In this document: in pieces, positions 6,202 through 15,737 of the stretch
How the letters are laid out: every line of letters begins with the position of its first letter
Position numbering within the stretch: the first letter of the stretch is position 1
The notes under the pieces: generated by a model
Seen by the model: only the letters and a program-made list of their open reading frames with translations
Database searches by the model: none
Told to the model about the DNA's origin: nothing
Assembly (NCBI RefSeq): GCF_003003125.1
Contig: NZ_PVTZ01000016.1
Span: forward strand, 1-64,000
Reading direction: 5' to 3'
From: Laceyella sediminis
Lineage (GTDB): Bacteria > Bacillota > Bacilli > Thermoactinomycetales > Thermoactinomycetaceae
Length of the DNA stretch: 64,000 bases
Translations under genes and position numbers: made by a program

Positions 6202-6627
6202 TTAGGACGTCTCCTTGATTCTCAGTTTGGAAGCTCCTCGCTTGCTGGGGAGTTTGTTAAAGCGGATTTCCAAAACCCCCCTGCGGTAGCGTGCACTGGT
6301 GTAGTTTTTGGACACGGGGGCTCCTAAGGGAATGCATTTTTGAAATTCACCCCGGCTCCGTTCCGCCAGCGTCATGCGATATCCGTTGTAAGGGATTGAA
6401 AAGCGTCCAGACAGCCACAAGGTATCGTTCTCCACCTTCATTTCCAATGACTGAATATTATCCATTCCCGGCAAATCAACAACGACAATCACTTCGTTTT
6501 TCCCATGATACACATCCGCTGCCGGCCCTTTGCGCTCCGCCGCCGAAAGGATATCTTCAAAGAAGTCATCCCCCAAAAATTGGCGCGCCAATTGGTTCCA
6601 TCCTTTATTGGAAAGTTGGCTTATCAT
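6202..6627 (-). CDS. Hsp20/alpha-crystallin family protein
   Basis: This 141-residue protein has an alpha-crystallin domain: ADVYHGKNEVIVVVDLPG begins it, the middle reads DTLWLSGRF, and YRRGVLEIRFNKLP is the A-x-x-x-G-V-L type ending. The C-terminal anchoring motif is weak. The ATG at 6627 has AAGGGGGAG 6-7 nt upstream; the longer frame from 6678 lacks one. It heads the minus-strand unit with the GerP-like genes, so a spore-coat role like that of B. subtilis CotM/CotP is more likely than a heat-shock role. That part is inference from context. Confidence 0.85.
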   Translation of the reverse strand: MISQLSNKGWNQLARQFLGDDFFEDILSAAERKGPAADVYHGKNEVIVVVDLPGMDNIQSLEMKVENDTLWLSGRFSIPYNGYRMTLAERSRGEFQKCIPLGAPVSKNYTSARYRRGVLEIRFNKLPSKRGASKLRIKETS

Positions 6628-6775
6628 CGCAAGCTCCCCCTTTGCTCCCGCCTGGCTTTTGCGTCCGCAGTTGCCCATATTTTATGCATTGCGTCCCCCA
6701 CTTGTCACAAAAGGTTGCATGAACCGGTGTACAGCCTCCATATACTTTAACAAGACGACAGAGGAGGGACCCCGG

Positions 6776-7105
6776 TTGCATGGATACGACCCCGACCACA
6801 TCCTGCGCATACTTTGGGAACGGATCTACTCGCTGGAAAATAAATTGCAAATGCTGGTAAATGAAAACGAAGCGTTGCAACAGCAGGTAAAACAGCTGAA
6901 GCCCCTTCACATCGATAAAATCGAATACAAAATCCATGAATTGCATGTGGAAACATTGAGCGGCACCTTGAATATCGGCCTGACCGCAACAGGCGAAGAA
7001 AATGGTGTCGGTGAAATCATCGAACAGGTCGTCAAACAGCAGGGAAACACCCACATCGGCGGTGACGATGATGACACCGAGGACACAGCCCCGCCTGGGG
7101 ATTGA
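6776..7105 (+). CDS. gerPC: GerPC-like spore germination protein, TTG start
   Basis: The protein begins with a coiled-coil stretch of about 45 residues (ILWERIYSLENKLQML onward). It then has the GerPC core IDKIEYKIHELHVETLSG followed by TLNIGLT, and it ends in a glycine/aspartate tail. At 109 residues it is shorter than B. subtilis GerPC (about 200). The frame opens far upstream over the divergent Hsp20 gene, but GAGGAGGG stands 7 nt before the TTG at 6776, which I take as the start. CATATACTTTA, about 30 nt upstream, resembles a sigma-K -10 element. The gene diverges from the Hsp20/GerPA unit. Confidence 0.75.
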   Translation: MHGYDPDHILRILWERIYSLENKLQMLVNENEALQQQVKQLKPLHIDKIEYKIHELHVETLSGTLNIGLTATGEENGVGEIIEQVVKQQGNTHIGGDDDDTEDTAPPGD

Positions 7106-9469: not shown

Positions 9470-10469
9470 GCGTCATCCCCTCCTGGTAAATCTTGCGCAC
9501 AATCTCTTCCGTCGACACTTCTTCAATCTGCATCTCGACAATATGCACATGCTGAACAATTTGCGCTAACACGTCGGAGACAGCCAAATCAGGTTGTTCC
9601 AAATGCAAGACGACTTGCCGCTCCCCTTTTCGCTCCCAGCGAAGCGGCATGCCTGCCGTTCTCGCTTCCAGCTCGCTCATGTCCACTTCCCGCGCCAACT
9701 CGAAGTGCACTTTTTTCCCTTTGGCCCAATTGCGGCGAAGCTCTTGCAAACCGCCGTCATAAATCACTTTGCCCTGATCTAGCATCACTACGCGGGAACA
9801 AAGAGCTTCAATGTCGGAGATGTCATGTGTCGTCAACAGCACAGTCGTACCAAATTCACGGTTAATCTCCCGCAAAAACCGGCGGATGTTCTCTTTCACC
9901 AGCACATCCAACCCAATCGTCGGTTCGTCCAAAAACAACAACTTCGGTTGGTGGATCAGCGCCGCGACCAATTCACACCGCATCCGTTGCCCAAGGCTTA
10001 GTTTGCGCACCGGCTGATCCAAAAGCCCACCGATGTCCAACACCTCGATCATCCGGTCCAGCCGTTGTTTATAGTCGGCGTCAGGCACTTGGTACACTTG
10101 TTTCAACAGCCGAAAAGATTCTTGCACGGCGATGTCCCACCACAACTGGCTCCGTTGCCCGAAAACCACGCCGATCGTCTTGACAAATTTCTCCCGCTCC
10201 CGGTGCGGATCGAAACCATTCACTTTCAATTCACCGGCCGTCGGTTGCAAAATACCGGTCAACATCTTGATCGTTGTCGACTTTCCGGCTCCGTTTTCAC
10301 CGATGTAGGCTACCATCTCACCTTGTTCAATCGTCAAATCAATGGCATCTACCGCGCGAATGGTGCGATATTGCCTGTTCAGCAGATCGCGAAACGCACC
10401 CTTGAGCCCCGGGCGGCTTTGATACACCTTGAATTCTTTTGTCAGGCCACGCGCTTCAATCGAACGCAT
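9462..10469 (-). CDS. ABC transporter ATP-binding protein
   Basis: This ATPase drives the two downstream permeases. It has Walker A GENGAGKST, the signature LSLGQRMR (a variant of LSGGQ), Walker B LLFLDEPT and the switch TTHD. The C-terminal 90 residues form the extension typical of the NatA/drug-export class. The ATG at 10469 has AAAGGAG 7 nt upstream; the frame to 10568 runs through an inverted repeat and is not used. It is the first gene of a three-gene operon. Confidence 0.93.
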   Translation of the reverse strand: MRSIEARGLTKEFKVYQSRPGLKGAFRDLLNRQYRTIRAVDAIDLTIEQGEMVAYIGENGAGKSTTIKMLTGILQPTAGELKVNGFDPHREREKFVKTIGVVFGQRSQLWWDIAVQESFRLLKQVYQVPDADYKQRLDRMIEVLDIGGLLDQPVRKLSLGQRMRCELVAALIHQPKLLFLDEPTIGLDVLVKENIRRFLREINREFGTTVLLTTHDISDIEALCSRVVMLDQGKVIYDGGLQELRRNWAKGKKVHFELAREVDMSELEARTAGMPLRWERKGERQVVLHLEQPDLAVSDVLAQIVQHVHIVEMQIEEVSTEEIVRKIYQEGMTLA

Positions 10470-10500
10470 CCTCCCACTCCTTTCACAATCACTGCCATGA

Positions 10501-10529
10501 AACAGAAGGCTTGGGGATGGCCTTCTGTT
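10501..10529. repeat. Perfect 10-bp inverted repeat upstream of the ABC operon
   Basis: AACAGAAGGC and GCCTTCTGTT flank a 9-nt spacer, about 30 nt before the ATPase start codon. On the plus strand GTTTTC follows, so it could be a weak terminator. On the minus strand it lies in the leader, so it could also be an operator or attenuator. Confidence 0.5.
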
Positions 10530-10730
10530 GTTTTCAAAGATACTAACGAAAAAAGGCATTCCCAACATGGAATACCCAACTACTGTCTATTTCAAAAGCA
10601 TTTTTCCCATTGCCTTCTATAGCATACCAAAAAAAAGTTTTTTTGCGAAGACATTATAAGCAACTTACTTTAATAAAGTTTCATTAAGCCGCTTTCTCAG
10701 CCCTCGGCTATCGCACCGACTGATCTACAA
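10530..10730. other. Intergenic region without a recognised gene
   Basis: This AT-rich stretch between the ABC operon leader and the Spo0M terminator contains an A8/T7 block (10630-10645) and a weak minus-strand TTGAAA with no good -10. I see no coding frame. It presumably holds the promoter of the ABC operon. Confidence 0.4.
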
Positions 10731-10761
10731 AAGCCAACTTCCCGCGCGAGAAGTTGGCTTT
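10731..10761 (-). terminator. Rho-independent terminator after Spo0M
   Basis: AAGCCAACTT and AAGTTGGCTT form a 10-bp stem with a GC-rich loop, and TTTTG follows on the minus strand. It stands just past the stop of the second Spo0M gene. The plus side is also T-rich, so it may act both ways. Confidence 0.75.
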
Positions 10762-10767
10762 TCTCCT

Positions 10768-11526
10768 TTACAGATGCTGATCAATCAGTTGTTTGATTTT
10801 CGCTTGCAATTGGGTAGTGGTATGCTCCACTTCCTTTTGCGACACCGTGAACCGAATGATCCGCTCATCCAAATTTAACGCCTCTTCCATCGAACTCATC
10901 AGGTCGACGGCTTTGCGATCCAATGACAGGATCACGTCCACTTCACTCATATGCGGATAGAAGACAAGGATGATTTCATCCAACTCCGCTTGATAGGGCC
11001 CCAACGGCGCAAGGCGGTATTCTTGGACAAACGGATGGCGAGAATAAAACTTGTCGAAGGCGAAGTTGACACTGCTCAAACGAAAGCCCACCTCTTCTAC
11101 CGCGTGCAACACGGTATCGACTAGCGGGTGGGGCAAAATCTCGATTCCGTCCGTATCACTTGGATCCACTGCCATTTTGATGTCCAAACCCGTTTTCACA
11201 TAAATGGGAGAACCTCCCGTCGATACCGGTGCATCATACGGTAACTGGAATTGGAACGGCAACACTTGCGTTTCCCGCACACCGATCTCAAAAGCGTCCG
11301 TCAGGCGGAATTCATCGATGACGTATTCATGCTCAGACCCTTCGTGCTGGTACTGCATGACCAAATATAGATAGATATCCTCAATCAGTTGCGGGGCTTG
11401 TCCTCCTTGCACGAATACCTCCCCGCGAATGATATCCCCCTGGCGATATGTGGCTTTTTCCAAGCGGGTGTCCACTTTGGCGGAGCCTACACCGATGCTT
11501 GCTAACGCTTTACCAAAAAACGACAT
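10768..11526 (-). CDS. Spo0M-type sporulation control protein, downstream paralogue
   Basis: The protein has the arrestin-like fold of Spo0M. It opens with FFGKALASIGVGSAKVDTRL, continues with beta-strand pattern (GDIIRGEVFVQGGQAPQ) and has the family segment YVKTGLDIKMAVDPSDTD near the middle. Its 252 residues match B. subtilis Spo0M (258), a regulator affecting sporulation at the Spo0 stage. It is about one-third identical by eye to the next gene upstream, so the pair arose by duplication. AGGGAG precedes the ATG. It is the last gene before a terminator. Confidence 0.88.
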   Translation of the reverse strand: MSFFGKALASIGVGSAKVDTRLEKATYRQGDIIRGEVFVQGGQAPQLIEDIYLYLVMQYQHEGSEHEYVIDEFRLTDAFEIGVRETQVLPFQFQLPYDAPVSTGGSPIYVKTGLDIKMAVDPSDTDGIEILPHPLVDTVLHAVEEVGFRLSSVNFAFDKFYSRHPFVQEYRLAPLGPYQAELDEIILVFYPHMSEVDVILSLDRKAVDLMSSMEEALNLDERIIRFTVSQKEVEHTTTQLQAKIKQLIDQHL

Positions 11527-11583
11527 ATGCTCAAGCTCCCTCTCTTCTAAGTGAATTTATTTTTTACCATGTATCCTACGCCT

Positions 11584-12342
11584 TTAGGCCAAGGTATTAC
11601 CCGGCTTGCGGTTCAACATCTCCTGAATCTTCAACAATGGATCGTCGGCGACTTTCTGATCATTGATAAACAAGGTGCCGTTAGGATCATGATATTCCCA
11701 CGCAAACGAGCTGTTAAGTACCCGTCCCGAACGGATCATTTCGATTTCCATATGAATGCTGACTTCAGAGACAAAAAAGATAATATTCAATTCATCAACG
11801 TAGCCGTGGTAGCGACCCGTCGGCTTGAATTGAAACATCTGAAAAAACGGGTGCGGTTTGGCCGTCGTATCATGTTCATTGTGGATCCGGTACAAGATAA
11901 AACCAGCGTCCTCCACTTGTTTGAGCAACTTTTGCACCAGCGGAGTAGGAAACACTTCAATTTTATCTAAATCTGTTGGATCAATGGCCATTTTTATATC
12001 CAAGCCGGTTTTAAAATAGACAGGATAATTACCTGTCGACATGGGCGTGGACATCGGAAGCTTGATCTGGAACGGAATCAGCTTCCGCTCTTCCGCTTGG
12101 ATGGTAAATGGTTGGGACAGTTGGTACTTTTCAATGGTCACTTGCGTCTTCTTATCTCCCTTGGAAACATCGGCAACCAAATAGAGATAGATGGTGGTGA
12201 TATCCTGTGGTGCCTGCCCCCCTTTGACCAACACCTCGCCTTTGACGGTGTCACCCGGATGAAATTGTTTTGATTCAAGGCGCGTATCAACGGTCGCTGA
12301 CCCAATCCCGATACTCGCCAACGATTTGAAAATCGGCATCAT
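11584..12342 (-). CDS. spo0M: Spo0M-type sporulation control protein, upstream paralogue
   Basis: This second arrestin-fold Spo0M protein is also 252 residues long. It shares SLASIGIGSATVDTRL, GEVLVKGGQAPQDI and YFKTGLDIKMAIDPTDLD with its neighbour. The C-terminal third differs most between the two copies, which suggests different partners. The start is ATGATG at 12342/12339 after GGAG. The gene lies 46 nt downstream of the coiled-coil protein gene and 57 nt upstream of the other paralogue, with no terminator in between. Confidence 0.88.
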   Translation of the reverse strand: MMPIFKSLASIGIGSATVDTRLESKQFHPGDTVKGEVLVKGGQAPQDITTIYLYLVADVSKGDKKTQVTIEKYQLSQPFTIQAEERKLIPFQIKLPMSTPMSTGNYPVYFKTGLDIKMAIDPTDLDKIEVFPTPLVQKLLKQVEDAGFILYRIHNEHDTTAKPHPFFQMFQFKPTGRYHGYVDELNIIFFVSEVSIHMEIEMIRSGRVLNSSFAWEYHDPNGTLFINDQKVADDPLLKIQEMLNRKPGNTLA

Positions 12343-12388
12343 GCACTGTCACTCCTTCACATGGTAAAAAAGGGAGAGACTGGGCGGC

Positions 12389-14239
12389 TTAAGACTCATC
12401 GCCCATCATCTGCTTCATATATTCTTCAAACTGCAATGCCAACTGATCTTGCTCCTGGCTTTCACGCTCCAACTTCTCCTGGCGCAAGCTGGCTTTCTCC
12501 TCGCTGCCTCGCTTTTCTTTTTCCTGCTTGGCTTCGGCTACCGGTGGTTGCGGATCAACCTGTTCTGGTTGCTCCTCCGCCGGCGGCGTTGGCTCCGCTT
12601 CGCTCTGTGGCTTGCCCTTTAACTGATGATCCTTGGGCAATAAATCAAACAGGCTTGCGCGCGGTTTGGTGTGTTGCGGAGTGATCAGGTAACGCTTGGA
12701 TGTCTGTTCAAGCTCCTCCCGCTGTTTCTCCAACCGTTCCTTGGTCTTGCTCTCCAGGAGTTCCCGTTGGGCTTTGAGCATCTCTTCTTGGCGCCGCCGG
12801 AATTCTTCTTCTTGTTTTTCCAAGAGCTTTTGCGCCAACACTTCAAATTCCTTTTGCAAGCGCTCCTTGAGCTCCTCCTCTTTGCGTTCCAGCTCCTGCC
12901 GCTTCTTCTCCCACTCCAGTCGTTCCTGCTTCAGCTTTTCTAATTCGGCTTGCACACGGTCCTCTTGCTCTTTCTCAATCCGTTCGCGTTCACGCTGCTC
13001 CCAGGCACGGCGCTCTTCTTCCTGCCGGGCGCGCTCCGCCTCCTCACGCTTGCGCTTTTCTTCCTCCAACCGCTCTTGCTCTTTTTTCTCCTGCTCGAGG
13101 CGCTCTTGTTCTAGTCTCTCTTGTTCTTTTTTCTCTTGCTCGAGCCGCTCTTTCTCTTCTTGCTCACGTTCCCAGCTTTCTTGTTCTTCCGGTTCAGTGA
13201 TGCGTTGCTTAAACTCTTCTTTCTGCTTGGCCAAAAGCTCCCGCTCTTTTTGTTCAAACTCCTGGCGTTGCTTTTCCAAGAGCTCCTGTTGTTTGCGCTC
13301 CAATTCTTCCCGTTGTTTCCGCAACAGCTCCTCTTGGCGCCGCTCAAACTCCAAGCGCAACTGCTCTAGGCGCTCTTCTTCCAACTTGCGATAGAGCTGT
13401 TCCTGTTCTTCTCTGTTGTCCGCGGGGGCCACGGGCGTTTCGGTAACCGGGGACGGTTCCTCATCCTTCTGCTGCTTCGGCACCGGCTGTTCTTTAGCGG
13501 CTTGCGCCTCCACTTTTTTCGGTCGCGGTTTGGTTTCCTCTTTTGTCGAGCCGAACAGGAAATCGAAGAACCCCCCGCCCTGCTTCTGCTTTTTCTTGTA
13601 CGCATCAATCTGGGACAGCACCGACTCAGGCGATTGTTTTTTCAAGCTGCGCTGGATCAGCCTGGACATGGGCTTGGAACAAGGAAAGTCGGCTGGCATT
13701 TTGTCCAACGGCTCCTCCAAGTACTGACCTGAAAGCAGGCTGAAAAAAAACGAACCCCAATCCAATGTGCGCGATTGGGCCGTAATCTGTTCCAATCCGC
13801 AAAAAAGTACACGTAATTCATCCTGGTCGTTTAGCCCAATGTTGCGCGGATCCAACAACAAATACATGGGCATGGGCTTGGACTTTAACTCGATTTCCAA
13901 AGAAAGTAGCTGACGCCCCCACTCGACCACTTGATCTTCATCAACCTCCCGCGAAGAAATTACTTCACGCAGCGGGTGAATCGCCTCATAAGGTCGAATG
14001 AATACGATGGAGCGCTCTTCTGTATATACTTCGTCATACGGAAGCACAAGCGGATGGTGCAAAGTGCGGTATTGCTGAATCGCCCGCGAAGGGGCTTGCT
14101 TCTGTAACATTGCGGATTGCAAATAAAACCGTTGGTCGTCTTTGCGAGCCACCGCGAGTTCCCCATCAAAAAATTTTACGACATGTTCTACCCGATAACC
14201 ATTTCGGTATATTTCACCCACTCCAAAAAACGACAACAT
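12389..14239 (-). CDS. Kinase-like N-terminus fused to a long coiled coil
   Basis: The 616-residue protein has two parts. Residues 1-220 resemble a degenerate protein kinase: a glycine-loop-like start, a hinge-like FIRPYEAIHPLREVI, then LLLDPRNIGLNDQDELRVLF, which aligns with the kinase segment HRDLKPxNILL...DFG. The HRD, lysine and DFG residues are missing, so it is probably a pseudokinase. After a proline/lysine linker, residues 320-530 are almost only Glu, Arg, Lys, Gln and Leu, a coiled coil or single alpha helix. The C-terminal 90 residues are charged and disordered. There is no membrane segment. The ATG at 14239 follows GGAGG by 6 nt. It shares a transcript direction with two Spo0M genes. 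Function is unknown. Confidence 0.7.
   Translation of the reverse strand: MLSFFGVGEIYRNGYRVEHVVKFFDGELAVARKDDQRFYLQSAMLQKQAPSRAIQQYRTLHHPLVLPYDEVYTEERSIVFIRPYEAIHPLREVISSREVDEDQVVEWGRQLLSLEIELKSKPMPMYLLLDPRNIGLNDQDELRVLFCGLEQITAQSRTLDWGSFFFSLLSGQYLEEPLDKMPADFPCSKPMSRLIQRSLKKQSPESVLSQIDAYKKKQKQGGGFFDFLFGSTKEETKPRPKKVEAQAAKEQPVPKQQKDEEPSPVTETPVAPADNREEQEQLYRKLEEERLEQLRLEFERRQEELLRKQREELERKQQELLEKQRQEFEQKERELLAKQKEEFKQRITEPEEQESWEREQEEKERLEQEKKEQERLEQERLEQEKKEQERLEEEKRKREEAERARQEEERRAWEQRERERIEKEQEDRVQAELEKLKQERLEWEKKRQELERKEEELKERLQKEFEVLAQKLLEKQEEEFRRRQEEMLKAQRELLESKTKERLEKQREELEQTSKRYLITPQHTKPRASLFDLLPKDHQLKGKPQSEAEPTPPAEEQPEQVDPQPPVAEAKQEKEKRGSEEKASLRQEKLERESQEQDQLALQFEEYMKQMMGDES
13071..13144. 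repeat. Tandem repeat within the coiled-coil gene
   Basis: A 29-nt block (13071-13099) recurs at 13116-13144 with three changes, a 45-nt period equal to 15 codons. It encodes repeated LEQEKKEQER units. The register keeps the reading frame, so the coiled coil can lengthen or shorten by whole repeats. Confidence 0.6.
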
Positions 14240-14438
14240 TCTTCGCCTCCAAACATTTCTTCCCAATTCCAACAACCAAGTTATATTCTTACAATCCGTA
14301 AAAACCGTATATATTCCCAATCTGAGAATATCACAGGTGCAAACGTTGAGACAACAACAAGTCTTGCGCCTCGAAGCCTAGGCAGTATGGGAAAACAGCG
14401 TTACAATTGACAAAGATGGAATAAAGGAGGAAGTGCTA

Positions 14439-15737
14439 TTGAAAATCGACCGTTCTATTCAATTATATAATGAAGCGTGCGATGTGATCGTGGGCGGTGT
14501 GAACAGTCCATCACGGTCTTTTCGTGCTGTGGGCAACGGCACGCCCATTTTTATGAAAAAAGCGCAAGGACCATATTTCTGGGATGAGGACGGAAACCGA
14601 TACATCGATTATTTGGCCGCATTCGGCCCTATCATCTTGGGTCACGCTCATCCTGTCGTGACTGCCGCCATCATCGAAACGGCTTCCGCTGGCGTGTTGT
14701 ATGGCACACCTACAGAAAAAGAGGTGCGGTTTGCCACCATGCTCCGTGAAGCGATCCCGACCATGGAACAGATTCGCTTCGTCAACAGTGGCACCGAAGC
14801 GGTGATGACCACCATCCGCTTGGCCCGCGCCTACACCGGCCGCAACAAGATACTGAAATTCGCCGGTTGCTATCACGGGCACTCCGACTTGGTGCTGGTT
14901 GCTGCCGGTTCGGGTCCTTCCACACTCGGCACGCCCGACAGCGCAGGGGTTCCCGTCAGCATCGCGCAAGAAGTGATTACAGTCCCCTACAACCGGATCG
15001 ACACTTTGCAAGAAGCGCTCGACCATTGGGGCGATGAGATCGCGGCGGTCTTGGTGGAACCTTTGGTCGGCAACTTCGGCATCGTTCCGCCTAACCCTGG
15101 CTTTCTGCAAACAGTGAACAAGCTGGCTCATGAAGCGGGCGCGCTTGTGATCTATGATGAAGTGATCACCGGCTTCCGCTTCCACTACGGCGGCGTCCAA
15201 ACCATGTACGGTGTCGAGCCCGACTTGACCGCTCTCGGAAAAATCATCGGCGGCGGCCTGCCCATCGGCGCCTATGGCGGCAAACGGCATATCATGGAAA
15301 AAGTCTCACCGATGGGACCGATGTACCAAGCTGGAACCATGGCTGGCAATCCCCTCTCCATCGCTGCCGGAATCGCCTGTGTTGAAACCCTCAGACAACC
15401 CGGGACTTACGAACGGTTGGATCAAATGGGCAAAACCTTGGCAGACGAGATCAAGCGCTTGGCCAAGAAACATGGCATCACGATCAGCCTGAACCGGGTA
15501 GGGGGAGCGTTCACCGTCTACTTCACCGAAGAGCAGGTGACGGATTATGAAGGCGCGAAGCGAGCTGACGGTGAGCTGTTCGGCCAGTTTTTCCGATTAA
15601 TGCTTGAAGAAGGCGTCTATTTGGCCCCATCCAAATATGAAGCTTGGTTCCTCACCACCGCCCATAGCGAAGAAGACATCCAATTTACTGTGCGTGCCGT
15701 AGAACGGGCTTTCAAAAAGATGAAACCCTCTCACTGA
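14439..15737 (+). CDS. hemL: Glutamate-1-semialdehyde 2,1-aminomutase (HemL/GsaB)
   Basis: This PLP enzyme converts glutamate-1-semialdehyde into 5-aminolevulinate for tetrapyrrole synthesis. The PLP-binding lysine lies in [17 protein letters not shown]. Other family blocks are [25 protein letters not shown] and [10 protein letters not shown]. At 432 residues it is full length. No other hem genes are near, so it is probably the second copy (gsaB type) known in Bacillus rather than the hemAXCDBL member. The start is TTG at 14439, 8 nt after AAAGGAGG; the GTG at 14433 is too close. Confidence 0.9.

Follow-up and report, generated by a model that had tools for sequence, protein, structure and literature searches.

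A putative pseudokinase with a charged helical rod is encoded beside two Spo0M-type proteins in Laceyella sediminis and most species of its order

To our knowledge, no mechanism is known for Spo0M, the family to which two of the three proteins described here belong. A role in sporulation control or cell division is known only for Spo0M of B. subtilis, which is expressed vegetatively from early growth on, is localised to the septum and the poles, and was co-precipitated with FtsZ and ZapA (PMC5325327). In mycobacteria, the envelope grows at poles and septum with the help of the pseudokinase domain of Rv3910/MviN, which works there as a docking module (PMC11898655). In Laceyella sediminis, a gene for a pseudokinase-like protein, here called P1, is followed by the genes of two Spo0M-type proteins, Spo0M-A and Spo0M-B. 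The following features were assigned in the window, i.e. the whole stretch of 64,000 nucleotides that was analysed (contig NZ_PVTZ01000016.1, positions 1 to 64,000).

14325-14354, minus strand: upstream of P1, conserved promoter-like element (TTGTCT-18-TATTCT, extended -10 TGATATTCT)
12389-14239, minus strand: P1, 616 aa, with pseudokinase, charged helical rod and conserved C-terminal helix (open reading frame; orthologues)
13580-14239, minus strand: P1 residues 1-220, predicted pseudokinase domain without the beta-3 Lys, the HRD Asp, the DFG Asp and the activation segment (AF2; fold matches; alignment)
12692-13414, minus strand: P1 residues 276-516, rod resembling a single alpha-helix, two long charged helices (276-346 and 350-516; AF2; charge pattern)
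12392-12532, minus strand: P1 residues 570-616, C-terminal helix with conserved core LALQFEEYMKQM (alignment; helix 570-613 in AF2)
11584-12342, minus strand: Spo0M-A, arrestin-fold protein, 252 aa (PF07070 E 1.5e-58; A clade 100/100)
10768-11526, minus strand: Spo0M-B, arrestin-fold protein, 252 aa (PF07070 E 4.6e-59; match to the solved Spo0M 5cl2, E 5e-42)
10731-10760, minus strand: terminator-like hairpin after Spo0M-B, AAGCCAACTTC ... GAAGTTGGCTT, then TTG (read directly in the sequence)

The three genes are collinear and separated by gaps of 46 and 57 nt. A terminator scan of positions 10400-14700 gave 0 minus-strand matches in either gap, the matches on this strand being confined to coding sequence or to the region 3' of Spo0M-B. 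The hairpin at 10760-10731 was left unflagged by this consensus scan, as it misses the T-run rule. Both Spo0M proteins scored far above the PF07070 cut-off of 23 bits (198 and 200 bits) and are related to the solved 5cl2. Our data thus agree with the first-pass annotation, which had described three collinear minus-strand genes with gaps below 60 nt, no internal terminator and two Spo0M-type arrestin-fold proteins. Synteny in many genomes of the order extends to the flanking genes (hemL type, truncated haemoglobin, ABC transporter), so that gene order alone provides weak evidence of a common function. A GerPC-type spore germination protein (Pfam E 1.2e-11) is encoded at 6530-7105 of the window. 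In families f3 and f4, gerP-type and Hsp20 genes are located directly beyond Spo0M-B; the first of these gerP-type genes is convergent and, therefore, they do not form one operon with Spo0M-B.

The head of P1 was modelled by AlphaFold (AF2) with pLDDT 91.9 and pTM 0.88 from a 22-sequence alignment. Best Foldseek matches were all kinases (E from 5.8e-8), and VIA-align yielded Z scores of 16.4 to PknI, 15.2 to S. aureus PknB, and 14.9 to the mycobacterial Rv3910 pseudokinase. Sequence comparison with solved structures gave weak matches, each of them a protein kinase. The degenerate kinase-like N-terminus proposed earlier was thereby borne out by structure prediction and fold search. The third-strand (beta-3) lysine is missing throughout the P1 family in the 22-sequence alignment, strand 36-44 being of the FYLQSA type without Lys. 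When P1 is aligned to the genome's own true kinases, HRDIKPHN corresponds to YLLLDPRN and TDFG to LFCG, and about 29 residues of the activation segment are missing, so P1 lacks the catalytic motifs of an active Ser/Thr kinase. PF00069 did not match P1, whereas three true kinases of the same genome matched at 1e-58. No Pfam or NCBIfam family exceeded its cut-off with P1, the sole Pfam model matched being DUF2076, below threshold. Because the kinase fold is combined with the loss of catalytic residues and activation segment, the head is, on the basis of the model, a real pseudokinase of a family without Pfam or NCBIfam name. It is 98% identical to its Laceyella sacchari counterpart. Among the viral contigs searched, no relative of P1 was confirmed.

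A second pseudokinase-like family of about 600 aa shares an N-terminal domain 27-28% identical to the P1 head (L067:3931-5775; in the Laceyella sediminis genome on contig C10, approximately 109100-109756). These proteins have one apparent transmembrane helix and a beta-rich outer part, their gene adjoins a lipoate-ligase-like gene, and 1-2 copies are present in most genomes of the order; the Laceyella sediminis copy had no Pfam or NCBIfam match. In family f2, a third protein (L131:5559-6848, L132:6107-7180) joins the first part of a P1-type head to an apparent transmembrane helix and differs in its C-terminal part.

In a tree of 78 Spo0M sequences, Spo0M-A forms one clade (support 100/100) and both the A and the B lines follow the host families, which argues for a duplication older than the families of the order. 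Judged from this tree, Spo0M-A and Spo0M-B are ancient paralogues whose two lines have stayed adjacent. In one genome (G033) both are found as a single 482-aa open reading frame (L123:1916-3364), possibly due to a lost stop codon in this draft genome. The previous view of Spo0M as normally a single gene does not apply here: 8 Spo0M genes are present in Laceyella sediminis and often 4-8 per genome in the order, and 1-3 copies were found among the matches listed for sampled Spo0M-containing genomes of the class outside the order. No tandem Spo0M pair was seen outside the order among the matches listed for approximately 110 sampled genomes of the class. Four further Spo0M paralogues of about 300 aa on contigs C2, C6, C8, and C15 of the Laceyella sediminis genome contain a segment rich in glycine and are extended at the C-terminus by an acidic stretch.

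P1 was identified in 36 out of 42 genomes of the host order (E < 1e-60); the approximately 360 further genomes searched in the class yielded none (E 1e-22). In 32 of the 42 genomes P1, Spo0M-A and Spo0M-B are collinear (18 in the host family, 10 in f3, 1 in f4, and 3 in f5), although 4 of these loci are split across contig ends, mostly inside the rod. Gaps are mostly 1-109 nt where no insertion is present. In the f3 loci examined in detail, a class II fumarase gene (fumC) lies between P1 and Spo0M-A, and the order P1-A-B is kept. A class II fumarase is also encoded directly after P1 in f2. The fumarase gene of these f3 and f2 loci was recorded at L122:7531-8928 and L125:7973-9370. Two outcomes had been named that would speak against the first-pass annotation, a head without kinase-fold matches and genes that never co-occur in relatives; in view of the kinase-fold matches and of the trio in order in 32 of 42 genomes, the opposite was found for both. 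Several genomes deviate from this arrangement. In genus g2 (G001-G003), the A/B pair occupies the same locus but P1 is missing (from sequence in G001 and G003, from Spo0M positions in G002). Two f2 genomes (G023, G024) have a P1 with its C-terminal tail, neither A nor B, and one Spo0M of another type, and in the f2 genome G025 P1 is a fragment. A short P1 without tail and zero Spo0M genes were found in G009, a tail-less P1 with only a B-like Spo0M in G012, and neither P1 nor Spo0M in f6 (G040, G041). Extra solitary P1 copies in G006 (C1) and G022 (C6) possess neither the tail nor a Spo0M neighbour.

This tail, absent from the first-pass annotation, has the consensus LAxQFEEYMxxM. Its core LAxQFEEYM is the best-conserved part of P1, with a conservation of 0.86 compared to 0.77 for the head and 0.67 for the rod. 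Each genome gave a single match, and every match lay at the C-terminal end of P1. The idea of a widespread motif was rejected, as no protein other than P1 carried the tail, either in the order (E 1e-3) or among approximately 360 further genomes of the class. Over 38 P1 copies, 32 had both the tail and an adjacent Spo0M-A, 2 the tail without A, 0 A without the tail, and 4 neither of them. Hence, Spo0M-A adjoins 32 of 34 tailed but 0 of 4 tail-less copies (Fisher p 2e-4, in a test that ignores shared ancestry, with about four events of tail loss).

Since P1, Spo0M-A and Spo0M-B are encoded side by side in most species of the order, we infer a physical complex of the three proteins, namely a vegetative scaffold built from a pseudokinase head, a stiff helix as spacer, and a tail docking the Spo0M pair. 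We give this reading about even chances, and this grading extends to it as a whole, including the co-transcription of the three genes as one operon-like unit. The head would not phosphorylate and would serve as a protein-docking module, the rod would be a stiff salt-bridged single helix spanning about 36 nm, and the C-terminal helix would dock the Spo0M-A/B arrestin-fold pair, most likely via A. The docking step is suggested by the co-occurrence of tail and Spo0M-A together with the way in which arrestin folds and short helices generally behave. The joint reading frame of A and B in G033 and the conserved extended -10 element are in line with this model as well. Such a complex might keep Spo0M at a set distance from the place where the head is anchored. 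This place would probably be a septum or a hyphal pole, a site taken over by analogy from B. subtilis Spo0M, which was found with FtsZ and ZapA (PMC5325327). It is possible, although on balance doubtful, that the trio represents a new complex for cell organisation, specific to this order of filamentous endospore formers, and that an arrestin-fold heterodimer in it reads a short helical motif on a pseudokinase, loosely parallel to eukaryotic arrestin/kinase scaffolding.

The alternative that survives best is that P1 and the Spo0M pair act separately, their adjacency resulting from a slowly rearranging neighbourhood, with P1 as a structural or envelope protein whose tail binds something else. 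The conservation of the flanking genes is in line with this explanation, and both the tailed P1 without A/B in f2 and the A/B pair without P1 in g2 favor it and argue against the scaffold. However, the order P1-A-B outlasts the fumC insertion and flank changes in f3, tail and Spo0M-A co-occur, and both G009, without tail and all Spo0M, and f6, without P1 and all Spo0M, argue against independent functions. We therefore regard separate action as rather unlikely.

The spacer of the proposed scaffold was described by the first-pass annotation as a 200-residue charged coiled coil. The full-length P1 model comprises the head (1-221), a disordered linker, the helices 276-346 and 350-516, a second disordered linker, and helix 570-613; relative placement of these parts is meaningless because the model was built from 8 sequences with a mean pLDDT of 73.5 and a pTM of 0.40. 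The rod is 61% charged. Opposite-charge i,i+4 pairs amount to 0.33 in the rod versus 0.07-0.10 in the SMC arms of the same genome, and a/d occupancy to 0.37 versus 0.64-0.69. A canonical coiled coil was rejected, as the hydrophobic a/d heptad signal of the two rod segments relative to shuffles was near chance (z 0.1 and 1.4, a simple measure with which dimerisation is compatible). High charge, opposite charges at i,i+4 and the absence of a hydrophobic heptad seam are the hallmarks of single alpha-helices (SAH), and on account of these properties a salt-bridged monomeric SAH spacer is more likely than a coiled coil. Its length is estimated at about 36 nm (approximately 240 residues x 0.15 nm), although rod length and sequence differ widely among P1 orthologues. 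A role of P1 as a polymer-forming cytoskeletal protein of filamentous growth, comparable to the coiled-coil proteins FilP or Scy and with Spo0M as an accessory, would be in agreement with the long helical rod and with the aerial hyphae described for the host family Thermoactinomycetaceae (PMC11810901), but the missing heptad periodicity, the salt-bridge pattern typical of monomeric single helices and the variability of the rod make it improbable. Shimazuella soli possesses P1 (L108) despite being called mycelium-free (PMC11810901).

Vegetative expression of the proposed scaffold is addressed by the region upstream of P1. The extended -10 motif TGnTATnCT was found in 30 of 34 P1 upstream regions, with 0.9 expected; three of these regions belong to solitary P1 copies, two of which carry the element. 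Most regions also contain a TTGT/CTGT-like box about 18 nt upstream of the extended -10. This conservation suggests a housekeeping sigma factor and vegetative expression of P1, the element being recognised as a consensus match. An ECF-sigma reading of an upstream TGAAAC was discarded, as TGAAAC is not conserved whereas the extended -10 core is. The sporulation-specific scaffold complex of the first-pass annotation, for which the name and history of Spo0M and the gerP-type germination genes nearby here and in f3 and f4 could be quoted, is the least probable explanation, since the conserved upstream element resembles a housekeeping-type extended -10, the gerP-type group next to Spo0M-B in f3 and f4 starts with a gene convergent to it and is not part of the same operon, and B. 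subtilis Spo0M is expressed vegetatively from early growth and is found with division proteins (PMC5325327).

In the scaffold that we favor, arrestin-fold proteins of bacteria would gain an interaction open to direct testing, through a conserved partner gene whose product has a defined tail of docking type. Furthermore, P1 adds a pseudokinase family with natural controls, namely tail-less copies, the pair without P1, and P1 without the pair. A search of the literature outside subscription journals on Thermoactinomyces or Laceyella together with pseudokinase, coiled coil or Spo0M turned up no account of P1 or of the three genes together. The components are of known kinds, and the combination and the P1 family appear to be undescribed.

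Loss of catalytic motifs is common to P1 and the seven named bacterial pseudokinase families ActPs1-3, GLW, CP1, DYD, and DLHK; in the part of the account available to us, a charged rod, a Spo0M partner or an occurrence in this host order is mentioned for none of these, which sets P1 apart by description (PMC12599244). EssB/YukC of type VII secretion resembles P1 in being a Firmicute pseudokinase whose three catalytic motifs are all degraded and whose activation loop is short, as far as the same partial account goes (PMC12599244). By that description, EssB is a transmembrane secretion component, whereas P1 is not predicted to span the membrane, and no secretion genes were found among its neighbours in the window or in the relatives examined. 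The SAH domains of myosins and CAF-1 are, in the accessible parts of the reports, Glu/Arg/Lys-rich spacers with i,i+4 salt bridges like the P1 rod (PMC5347031, PMC10335832), but the latter is bacterial and located between a pseudokinase and a short docking-type helix. The Rv3910/MviN pseudokinase, whose partner is FhaA, has the same fold as the P1 head (Z 14.9). MviN is a 15-helix membrane flippase, in contrast to P1, which is soluble and has a helical rod and no predicted membrane part. Spo0M-A and Spo0M-B are both full-length members of the Spo0M family (PF07070; 5cl2) and differ from Spo0M elsewhere in that they represent two dedicated lines of paralogues, encoded in tandem after the gene of a pseudokinase.
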